In this document: positions 30,842 to 33,798 of the stretch, piece after piece
Position numbering within the stretch: position 1 is the first letter of the stretch
Layout of the letters: the number at the start of each line of letters is the position of its first letter
Source: an uncultured Armatimonadota bacterium
GTDB taxonomy: Bacteria > Armatimonadota > Fimbriimonadia > Fimbriimonadales > Fimbriimonadaceae
Assembly: GCA_903833215.1 (NCBI GenBank)
Contig: CAILEM010000098.1
Span: 1-33,798 of the forward strand
Length of the DNA: 33,798 bases
Direction of reading: 5' to 3'
Made by a program: the position numbers and the translations under genes
The notes under the pieces: generated by a model
Seen by the model: only the letters and a program-made list of their open reading frames with translations
Database searches by the model: none
Told to the model about the DNA's origin: nothing

Positions 30842-30880
30842 TGATGCCTCCAGCCGAAGCGATAGCGGAGCTTGGAGGCT
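30842..30880 (+). repeat. REP-like palindrome, copy F
   Basis: GATGCCTCCAG, an inner hairpin around GCGATAGC, then TTGGAGGC: stem GCCTCCAG/TTGGAGGC with one G:T pair. It belongs to the family clustered at 33293-33702 and lies 39 bases past the aminotransferase stop, where it may help to end transcription or protect the mRNA. Confidence 0.65.
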
Positions 30881-30999
30881 CTCGATCCGACCAGCAATCG
30901 AAGGCGTTTCCTGAATGTGGGCACCAACGCATTTGGCCATGGCTGGGGAATGAACGATGCGAAACAGCCCCAAACACCAAAGGTGTTTTGTCATCAAAG

Positions 31000-31033
31000 C
31001 CCAGGGATGCGTCCCCGAGGACGCTTCCCTGGG
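31000..31033. other. Long perfect hairpin
   Basis: CCCAGGGA-T-GCGTCC, loop CCGA, GGACGC-T-TCCCTGGG forms a stem of 14 pairs with one internal T/T position. No U-run follows. It is part of the hairpin array after the pyrimidine operon. Confidence 0.6.
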
Positions 31034-31307
31034 TTCAGTAGCAGGCAAACGATCAACGCTGAAAGTGTTGAGTCCCTAAGCGGCCGACGAGAACATGTTT
31101 TCGATTTATCTCGCAACTCCGAGCATTTGCCAAGTCGCGAGGCCGGTGACGCAACACCTTCAGTGTTGATCGGATAGGGAATACCCATCCCAGTGTAGCC
31201 TCGCTTCGCGACGCAACACTGGGCTTTGGGGACCGAACACCTTCGGCGTTCGACCAGATCGCGATTTATCATTCCCTTAGGGTACGTCAGCAAGCCGCAT
31301 GGTCTTT

Positions 31308-33156: not shown

Positions 33157-33292
33157 GAGAAGCCGTGAAGCGTCACGGGACGAATTTTCGCGTAGTCATT
33201 TGCTGGAAGCGAGAGTTCATTGTGTCTTGGCAGGGCTATTCATATGCTGGAGTCAACAAGCTTCGGACCGAAACCTGCGGAGTAGCGCTAGC

Positions 33293-33334
33293 GATGATGC
33301 CTCACGCCTGAGCCATAGGCGAAGCCGTGAGGCT
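33293..33334 (+). repeat. REP-like palindrome, copy A
   Basis: Outer stem GCCTCACG/CGTGAGGC, inner stem GCC-ATA-GGC, preceded by GATGAT. Both stems differ from copies B and C by paired, compensating changes. Confidence 0.7.
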
Positions 33335-33382
33335 AAGAGACCGACCAGCCATCGGAGGTAAGTCCGAAGGAACACCACCTGC

Positions 33383-33423
33383 GATGATGCCTCCAGCCGA
33401 AGCGATAGCGGAGCCTGGAGGCT
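33383..33423 (+). repeat. REP-like palindrome, copy B
   Basis: GATGAT, outer stem GCCTCCAG/CTGGAGGC, inner GC-GATA-GC. Nearly identical to copy C; both are preceded by ACCTGC. Confidence 0.75.
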
Positions 33424-33475
33424 CGAACCGACTGTTTTCGATGGAGACCGCATGTGCATCACAAATACGACCTGC

Positions 33476-33516
33476 GATGATGCCTCCAGCCGGAGCGATA
33501 GCGGAGCCTGGAGGCT
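33476..33516 (+). repeat. REP-like palindrome, copy C
   Basis: Same outer and inner stems as copy B, with one substitution (CCGG for CCGA). It lies 93 bases downstream of B with the same ACCTGC flank. Confidence 0.75.
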
Positions 33517-33574
33517 CGAATCACCTGCTTTCGAACACGAACGCGCCGTTTGCCTTCCGAGCACTCTGTCATTT

Positions 33575-33614
33575 AGCCTCACGGCTTCGGCGGTGCCTCA
33601 GGCGTGAGGCATCA
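33575..33614 (-). repeat. REP-like palindrome, copy D (inverted)
   Basis: Read on the minus strand: TGATGCCTCACG ... CGTGAGGC with inner stem GGC-ACC-GCC. It shares the outer stem with copy A, and its inner stem is a third paired version. Confidence 0.7.
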
Positions 33615-33660
33615 ATGTGGAGGGTGGCTGAAAGGTTCGCCTGCCGAGCACTCTATGAGG

Positions 33661-33702
33661 AGCCTTCACGCTCCGCCGATGGCTCCGGGTGGAGGCATCA
33701 TC
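33661..33702 (-). repeat. REP-like palindrome, copy E (inverted)
   Basis: Read on the minus strand: GATGATGCCTCCAC ... GTGAAGGC with inner stem GCC-ATC-GGC. The outer stem has one mismatch, so it is the most diverged copy. Confidence 0.65.
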
Positions 33703-33723
33703 GCGGCTGGTGTTCGGTAAACA

Positions 33724-33763
33724 CAGAAACGCGAGGTCCATTGATTTGGACCTCGCGTTTCTG
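33724..33763. terminator. Perfect 17-bp hairpin, probable bidirectional terminator
   Basis: CAGAAACGCGAGGTCCA pairs perfectly with TGGACCTCGCGTTTCTG around the loop TTGATT. A short T-rich tract (CTGTTTT) follows on the plus strand. It probably ends a gene lying to the right, or the region in general. Confidence 0.65.
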
Positions 33764-33798
33764 CTGTTTTGGGGTGAATCGTTAGGGACTAGTTTCGG

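Follow-up and report, generated by a model that had tools for sequence, protein, structure and literature searches.

Dispersed REP-like hairpins with covarying stems in an Armatimonadota genome, and palindromes with the same foot beside a RAYT clade of related genomes

The genome of an uncultured Armatimonadota bacterium (Fimbriimonadaceae; GCA_903833215.1, 6.22 Mb in 168 contigs) holds about 110 copies of a short hairpin repeat, of which 109 copies at 56 places were analysed. The stems keep their pairing while their letters change, the copies are dispersed and follow a set order in arrays, and palindromes with the same foot lie beside a clade of RAYT genes in related genomes. Our preferred explanation, to which we give a probability of roughly 0.78, is that of a REP/REPIN family whose copies, as single-stranded hairpins, are the substrate of a RAYT of that clade, the family being now orphaned or its enzyme unassembled.

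The starting point was a sequence-only reading of contig CAILEM010000098.1 (C98; 33798 bases, analysed whole and referred to as the window). It had described five copies within 410 bp and a sixth at 30842-30880, and all six were found. The window contains the following parts, with scores in bits against the covariance model R1 described below:

30842-30880, + strand: REP copy 1, a singleton with a beta-type tail, apical part GC-GATA-GC; 59.4 bits
33295-33334, + strand: REP copy 2, outer stem GCCTCACG/CGTGAGGC, apical part GCC-ATA-GGC; 60.2 bits
33335-33384: direct linker between copies 2 and 3, 50 nt, running from a beta-type tail to a head flank
33385-33423, + strand: REP copy 3, outer stem GCCTCCAG/CTGGAGGC, apical part GC-GATA-GC; 62.2 bits
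33424-33477: direct linker between copies 3 and 4, 54 nt, running from a beta-type tail to a head flank
33478-33516, + strand: REP copy 4, outer stem GCCTCCAG/CTGGAGGC, apical part GC-GATA-GC; 63.8 bits
33517-33574: REPIN centre, 58 nt, with a beta tail on the left and an alpha tail on the right
33575-33614, - strand: REP copy 5, outer stem GCCTCACG/CGTGAGGC, apical part GGC-ACC-GCC; 54.7 bits
33615-33660: direct linker between copies 5 and 6, 46 nt, running from the alpha-type tail of copy 6 to the head flank of copy 5
33661-33700, - strand: REP copy 6, outer stem GCCTCCAC/GTGAAGGC with one mismatch, apical part GCC-ATC-GGC; 57.9 bits

The inner stems were as first described. The head TGATGCCTC opens all six copies, with a further GA preceding it in four of them. 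Two details had to be amended. The two outer-stem types named at first stand, with the mismatched copy 6 (a C.A mismatch) adding a third type, and the pairing of the copy at 30842 includes one G.T pair (CCAG/TTGG).

The covariance model R1 was built from 34 copies, obtained with a simple pattern and its neighbourhood; the simple pattern itself occurred at 22 places, vs. 0 in the reversed control. Genome-wide, R1 gave at least 118 matches at E<=1 and at least 109 at E<5e-4, counts that are lower bounds, with 150 of the 5114 first-look candidates scored, and that include the 34 training copies, which match by construction. The sequence-only reading had proposed such a search, with a model of the six copies, as a check; the search with R1 revealed copies dispersed over the genome and not limited to the window locus.

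We have then examined whether the pairing outlasts letter change. In a model-aligned set of 110 copies (83 distinct), 96.6% of the cells were paired vs. 84.2% after shuffling, 80 cells were changed on both sides vs. 17.2 in shuffles, and the covariation score was 0.286 against a maximum of 0.023 for slid versions, in which 27-50% of the cells were paired. Two of the five measures remained at shuffle level (6 pairs with a double change, 5.6 in shuffles, and 14 further pair types, 13.6 in shuffles), and the excess lies in the frequency of double changes and not in the number of pairs or pair types. Because the model alignment leans to the model, we have also parsed the copies by fixed offsets from both ends, which could be done for 104 of the 109 copies having a usable length (77 distinct). 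At the five variable pairs, 354 of the 385 cells were paired vs. 267 (maximum 292) in shuffles that leave the kinship among copies in place, three outer subtypes making up most of the copies. The swaps observed were C-G/A-T, A-T/C-G and G-C/C-G in the outer helix and G-C/A-T and C-G/G-C in the apical part. Stem-breaking changes, sought as a refutation, were a minority (3.4% of cells unpaired in the model alignment, 31 of 385 at the five variable pairs). The claim of a dispersed REP-like family whose pairing is preserved despite letter change is thus supported by these counts.

Each unit runs from TGAT through an 8-bp foot helix, a five-versus-five internal loop, an apical stem of 2-3 bp and an apical loop of 3-4 nt to a closing T, forming an imperfect palindrome of mostly 38-40 nt. 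Among the 104 copies, the 5' tag was TGAT in 88, CGAT in 7, GGAT in 3 and AGAT in 2, and the 3' T was present in 95. The foot helix consists of GCCTC followed by three variable pairs. Its first five pairs (GCCTC/GAGGC) hardly vary, and the variable ones define the subtypes CAG/CTG (58 copies), CAC/GTG (14) and ACG/CGT (14), 86 together. The internal loop is purine-rich (CCGGA/GGAGC with coupled variants), with A17 in 101 and G27 also in 101 of the 104 copies. Its facing positions are C.C, C-G, G.A (82/104), then G.G or A.G or G.A, and lastly A.G (98/104), three of the five being paired in at most 5 of 104 copies. T15 was found in 14 copies, all with the 5' ACG stem, and 12 of the 14 ACG/CGT copies had both T15 and the A variant opposite. 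This loop variant travels with the ACG/CGT stem, which suggests that foot and internal loop are read together.

Folding of the six window copies as single-stranded DNA, two of them also as bottom strand, gave mixed results (z from -0.7 to -5.5). The predicted minimum was the family fold for copies 2 and 5 and nearly so for copy 1; for copies 3 and 4 the foot was formed with a different upper pairing, and copy 6 adopted another fold.

The 56 clusters comprise 22 singles, 19 pairs, 12 triples, 2 fours and 1 five. Their 53 neighbouring pairs were +- in 26 cases, -- in 16 and ++ in 11, with -+ in none, which gives the order +..+ -..-; the pairs more than 100 nt apart were four +- and one --. Spacing was narrow, the gap being 56-61 nt in 21 of the 26 +- pairs and 44-50 nt in 23 of the 27 direct, head-to-tail pairs, which step by ~86 nt and account for 27 of the 53 pairs. 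The hairpin is followed by one of two tail types, alpha or beta, and the centre between opposed copies is asymmetric. Based on a thresholded typing script, which left one centre and three direct pairs untyped and omitted the 5 of 53 pairs over 70 nt apart, 20 of the 21 typed centres joined alpha to beta and 21 of the 23 direct neighbours had one common type. The head flank is conserved to ~20 nt upstream (80 outermost heads). In 21 dimers, the hairpins were 79% and 88% identical and the centres 63%. We have considered tandem duplication as a possible origin of the head-to-tail neighbours: their hairpin identity (0.827, n=26) was close to that of random pairs (0.811), though their tail types agree as given above.

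The repeat family that belongs to the RAYT on contig C99 begins ~15 nt or less from a focal REP tail at three loci (L191 on C163, L176 on C110 and L170 on C97), as though inserted into the REPIN centre. A candidate empty site at the tail flank of one C163 copy was discarded, its matches elsewhere being the start of this other family.

Regarding genomic placement, only 1 of the 56 clusters overlapped a coding-like ORF as defined by a rough ORF caller. Clusters with both neighbours called lay between tandem (10), convergent (6) or divergent (2) genes, and five clusters had no called neighbour. Where one neighbour was called, the 3' end of the gene pointed toward the repeat in 25 of 32 cases (hand count, crude ORF finder). 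The left neighbour of the window cluster, as roughly called, points away from it.

RAYT genes elsewhere in the genome, which the sequence-only reading had recommended looking for, are present, and there are several. Seven Y1_Tnp matches were found, and the REP_Tyr_transpos model added two places at E<1e-6 (C134 and a second one on C109) and a weaker one on C101. The fetched flanks of the seven Y1 genes gave no R1 match at E<=1, and by eye they hold other palindromes or inverted repeats of their own; the best R1 match in the flanks of the further RAYT-like places had an E of 0.47. Four IS200-like genes carry a Y...Q..HH motif resembling TnpAY1 subclass 1.2, listed as lacking REPs in the classification given in PMC6006769. 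Profile searches of this genome recovered no clade RAYT, intact or broken. With the clade profiles, the best resident hits, on C99 (E 1e-7) and C109 (E 3.8e-8), were RAYTs that belong to a different clade and have palindromes of their own, and a weak match on C134 (E 0.015) was set aside as a RAYT-like gene near a contig end and without the repeat. The absence of a clade RAYT may reflect an assembly gap, since 11 of the 56 clusters sit within 350 bp of a contig end vs. 1.06 expected if placed at random; the assembly could lack a RAYT locus of ~1 kb lying between two such clusters. For some of these breaks, a repeated gene end is a better explanation than the REP cluster.

The evidence for an enzyme partner comes from the relatives. 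R1 matches occurred in 7 of 61 genomes, that of the window included; G033 and G026 are two of these relatives, and a profile of the RAYT lineage that they carry matched strongly (E<1e-37) in 17 of the 85 family genomes. Palindromes of the form ATGCCTC..GAGGC lie beside clade RAYTs in eight genomes (G033, G026, G029, G071, G025, G018, G001 and G081), on both flanks of the gene in G033 and G026, and the foot GCCTC/GAGGC with its 5' AT recurs beside the clade under other upper stems. R1 itself matched at E<=0.004 beside six of the 16 clade RAYTs tested (L109, L110, L113, L115, L118 and L119). The clade had a support of 99/94 and excluded the RAYTs of the window's genome that were put in the tree (L027-L029). 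Its members qualify as RAYTs: the HuH H.H, catalytic Tyr and NP columns were invariant in the 15 rows of alignment A6, all three proteins tested scored over the cut-off of NCBIfam REP_Tyr_transpos (NF047646), and the profile matched the solved structure of E. coli TnpArep (PDB 4er8) with an E of 2.8e-10.

Of the 22 clade loci, 14 had a foot-type palindrome at a distance of 700 bp or less, compared with 4 of the 35 other Y1 loci; the Fisher p of 7e-5 is optimistic because the pattern was set after viewing some of the loci and related genomes were counted as independent. In this test L130 was absent and L082-L084 were removed as duplicates of L109-L111, with L134, L103 and L104 omitted from the tree only. 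The remaining 8 of the 22 clade loci had no foot-type palindrome according to the script, and on the tree the label required 8 changes, not one (14.0 in shuffles). The strict motif AT-n-CCTC..GAGG-n occurred at 10 of the 23 clade loci, against 1 of the 44 control loci (hit positions approximate) and 3 of 77 distant named loci, and a tighter ATGCC stem scan of 80 named loci returned 0. At the genome level, 8 of the 12 palindrome-rich genomes had a strong clade RAYT, compared with 9 of the 73 others (p 1.6e-4, with thresholds chosen after the counts had been seen). Two of the palindrome-rich genomes, G066 and G091, had no strong clade RAYT, with a partial match in G066 only; their ATGCCTC..GAGGCT places numbered 62 and 29, respectively, vs. 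2 and 2 in the reversed control.

The most similar repeats were found in a genome of the same genus (G009), which had 56 R1 matches, mostly of 38-45 nt and alike in head and foot; by eye, one kind has a CCGAAG..CGAAGC-like loop. Its clade RAYT is apparently split into two pieces, each at a different contig end, and longer palindromes of the GCCTC..GAGGCT type adjoin it. The 27 Y1 matches of this genome had no R1 match nearby, five repeat loci given as positives being recovered (27 sources, with C116 given twice and two C23 matches in one source), and beside an extra piece on C274 the best R1 match had an E of 0.6.

Host selection, and not movement, might instead maintain the hairpins, whose main role would then be that of RNA or chromosome elements, acting at mRNA 3' ends, in transcription pausing or in the binding of gyrase or the nucleoid. 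This would be compatible with their near absence from coding-like ORFs (1/56 clusters), the gene 3' ends facing them (25/32), the better conservation of hairpins than of centres and the presence of G-U type pairs. However, the linkers and centres listed have no T-run after the stem, so the repeats are not ordinary terminators, and the window had no Rfam match at the gathering score. In addition, conserved tail types and head flanks outside the hairpin would be needless for an RNA hairpin alone, and the link to the RAYT clade also argues against this reading, which we consider unlikely.

Alternatively, a resident RAYT or IS200-like transposase could mobilise the repeat in trans, and the genome does encode candidates (the seven Y1 matches and the two RAYT-like places at E<1e-6). 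The idea is at odds with their flanks, which hold other palindromes and no convincing R1 match (none at E<=1 for the seven, 0.47 at best for the others), and with the published REP systems covered in PMC6006769, where each enzyme is matched to its own REP family; we find it improbable. Even the paired changes could have another source, namely template switching in replication, with one arm copied onto the other and no selection on the fold. A process of this kind is described for RNA hairpins in the cited part of PMC8794818. But arm-to-arm copying should erase the non-complementary internal loop, whose retention in nearly all of the 104 copies argues against such copying as the only cause, and three outer-stem types covering 86 of the 104 copies look more like the spread of subtypes. 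Such an origin seems very improbable to us.

We return to a REP/REPIN family served by a RAYT of the relatives' clade. Each copy, as single-stranded DNA, can fold into a double hairpin made of the 8-bp foot helix, a purine-rich mismatch loop and the 2-3 bp apical hairpin. The clade RAYT, as an HuH/Y1 single-strand endonuclease, would recognise the 5' AT together with the foot and the internal loop, and probably copied or moved the unit into intergenic sites by single-strand cleavage. Copies still able to fold would survive or replace others, which we propose as the reason for the paired changes. That an enzyme of the clade acted on the window's own copies, and that its gene was lost or left unassembled here, is likewise the probable course of events. 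The original claim of movement by RAYTs is partly supported: it is favoured by the same-foot palindromes flanking the clade in relatives, on which mobilisation has to rest because the resident loci tested have no flanking repeat, and it is weakened by these loci and by the TGAT tag.

Published REPs are palindromic repeats of 20-40, up to ~65 nt, with many copies and a mainly extragenic location, a description that fits 109 copies of mostly 38-40 nt in 56 clusters. The opposite-orientation pairing of REPINs is also present (26 of 53 pairs), and a cognate RAYT flanked by the same REPs was not found in the same genome, assembly gaps being possible. The unit carries neither the GTAG superfamily tag (GTAG, GYAG, GYRG, GTRG, GTMG or GTGG unpaired at one end) nor the CGTC tag (CGTC unpaired at one end) of Di Nocera 2013. 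The family is REP-like by its mode of working and is neither a GTAG nor a CGTC REP. REPs are already known, from the cited sections of PMC3733652, PMC6006769 and PMC8266576, to have complementary swaps of stem letters, apical parts of the GC/GC and GGC/GCC kind, inverted pairing and RAYT partners; what sets this family apart is its tag, the foot common to a RAYT clade, its array order and its phylum.

The closest comparisons can be drawn with three systems. Like the GTAG-3 REPs of enterobacteria with TnpAREP (subclass 2.2), as outlined in PMC3733652, the unit has non-complementary bases between the stem and an apical part closed by GC/GC or GGC/GCC, occurs as inverted pairs and has a putative RAYT partner; unlike them, it has TGAT in place of GTAG, the foot GCCTC/GAGGC and many head-to-tail neighbours, and no cognate RAYT was found in its genome. 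With the Pseudomonas fluorescens SBW25 REPINs, in the account cited from PMC3116915, it shares REP pairs at a set distance, intergenic dispersal and clusters beside RAYT genes, differing in the tag, the +..+ -..- order, the ~86 nt steps and the absence of -+ (0/53). It also resembles the atypical REPs beside TnpAY1 subclass 2.6, mostly of Bacteroidetes, in having no GT[AG]G, and by eye the clade motifs recall the subclass 2.6 entry (WQ, YIH.NP), a likeness of motif only (entry as given in PMC6006769). The present family differs from these in belonging to Armatimonadota, in its clearly covarying fold and in an HuH motif that reads EHLH, HHIH or NHIH among others. A literature search combining Fimbriimonas with repetitive extragenic palindromic found nothing, and one combining Armatimonad with RAYT returned nothing on the subject, judging by titles and the opening of abstracts.

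A broader model can be put forward tentatively, and we hold it as possible but doubtful. In one Armatimonadota RAYT clade, a foot code (5' AT, n-CCTC/GAGG-n, 3' T) would be largely fixed while the upper part turns over, from a simple 11-bp hairpin to a double hairpin with a purine loop. In growing arrays, each new unit would insert at the 5' head flank of a copy already present, on either arm, and this would yield +..+ -..- and never -+. Of the 85 family genomes searched, that of the window's species would then hold the largest population of this kind, with the clade enzyme absent from its assembly. The 83 distinct natural variants, together with sister systems that swap the upper stem, could show which parts of a REP are read by a RAYT, and the system could show whether REP populations outlive their own enzyme. 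The setting is one of a non-GTAG tag in a phylum for which the literature searched, as far as titles and abstracts tell, contains no REP or RAYT study; the REP recognition work in PMC8266576 concerns, in the part cited, GTAG-tagged systems.

Further features of the window were observed. The cluster and its flank (33290-33798) are 88.7% identical over 512 bases to C138:57-566, a duplication of the cluster together with an adjoining gene end. The last 109 bases of the window (33690-33798) include a strong 17-bp inverted repeat at 33724-33763 next to an apparent gene end entering from the right on the - strand, and recur in whole or in part on C138 (97%), C143 (two places), C17, C80, C41, C124 and C131. 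Since this stretch recurs near contig ends of C138, C143, C17, C80 and elsewhere, the repeated gene end with its putative terminator seems to break the assembly at the right edge of the window. A second palindromic repeat cluster, with AACACCTTCAGTGTT and CCCAGTGT..ACACTGGG types, occupies 30973-31262; its part at 31130-31262 has 38 genome matches including itself and shares 85% identity across 112 bases with the flank of the IS200-like Y1 gene on C50 (L025).
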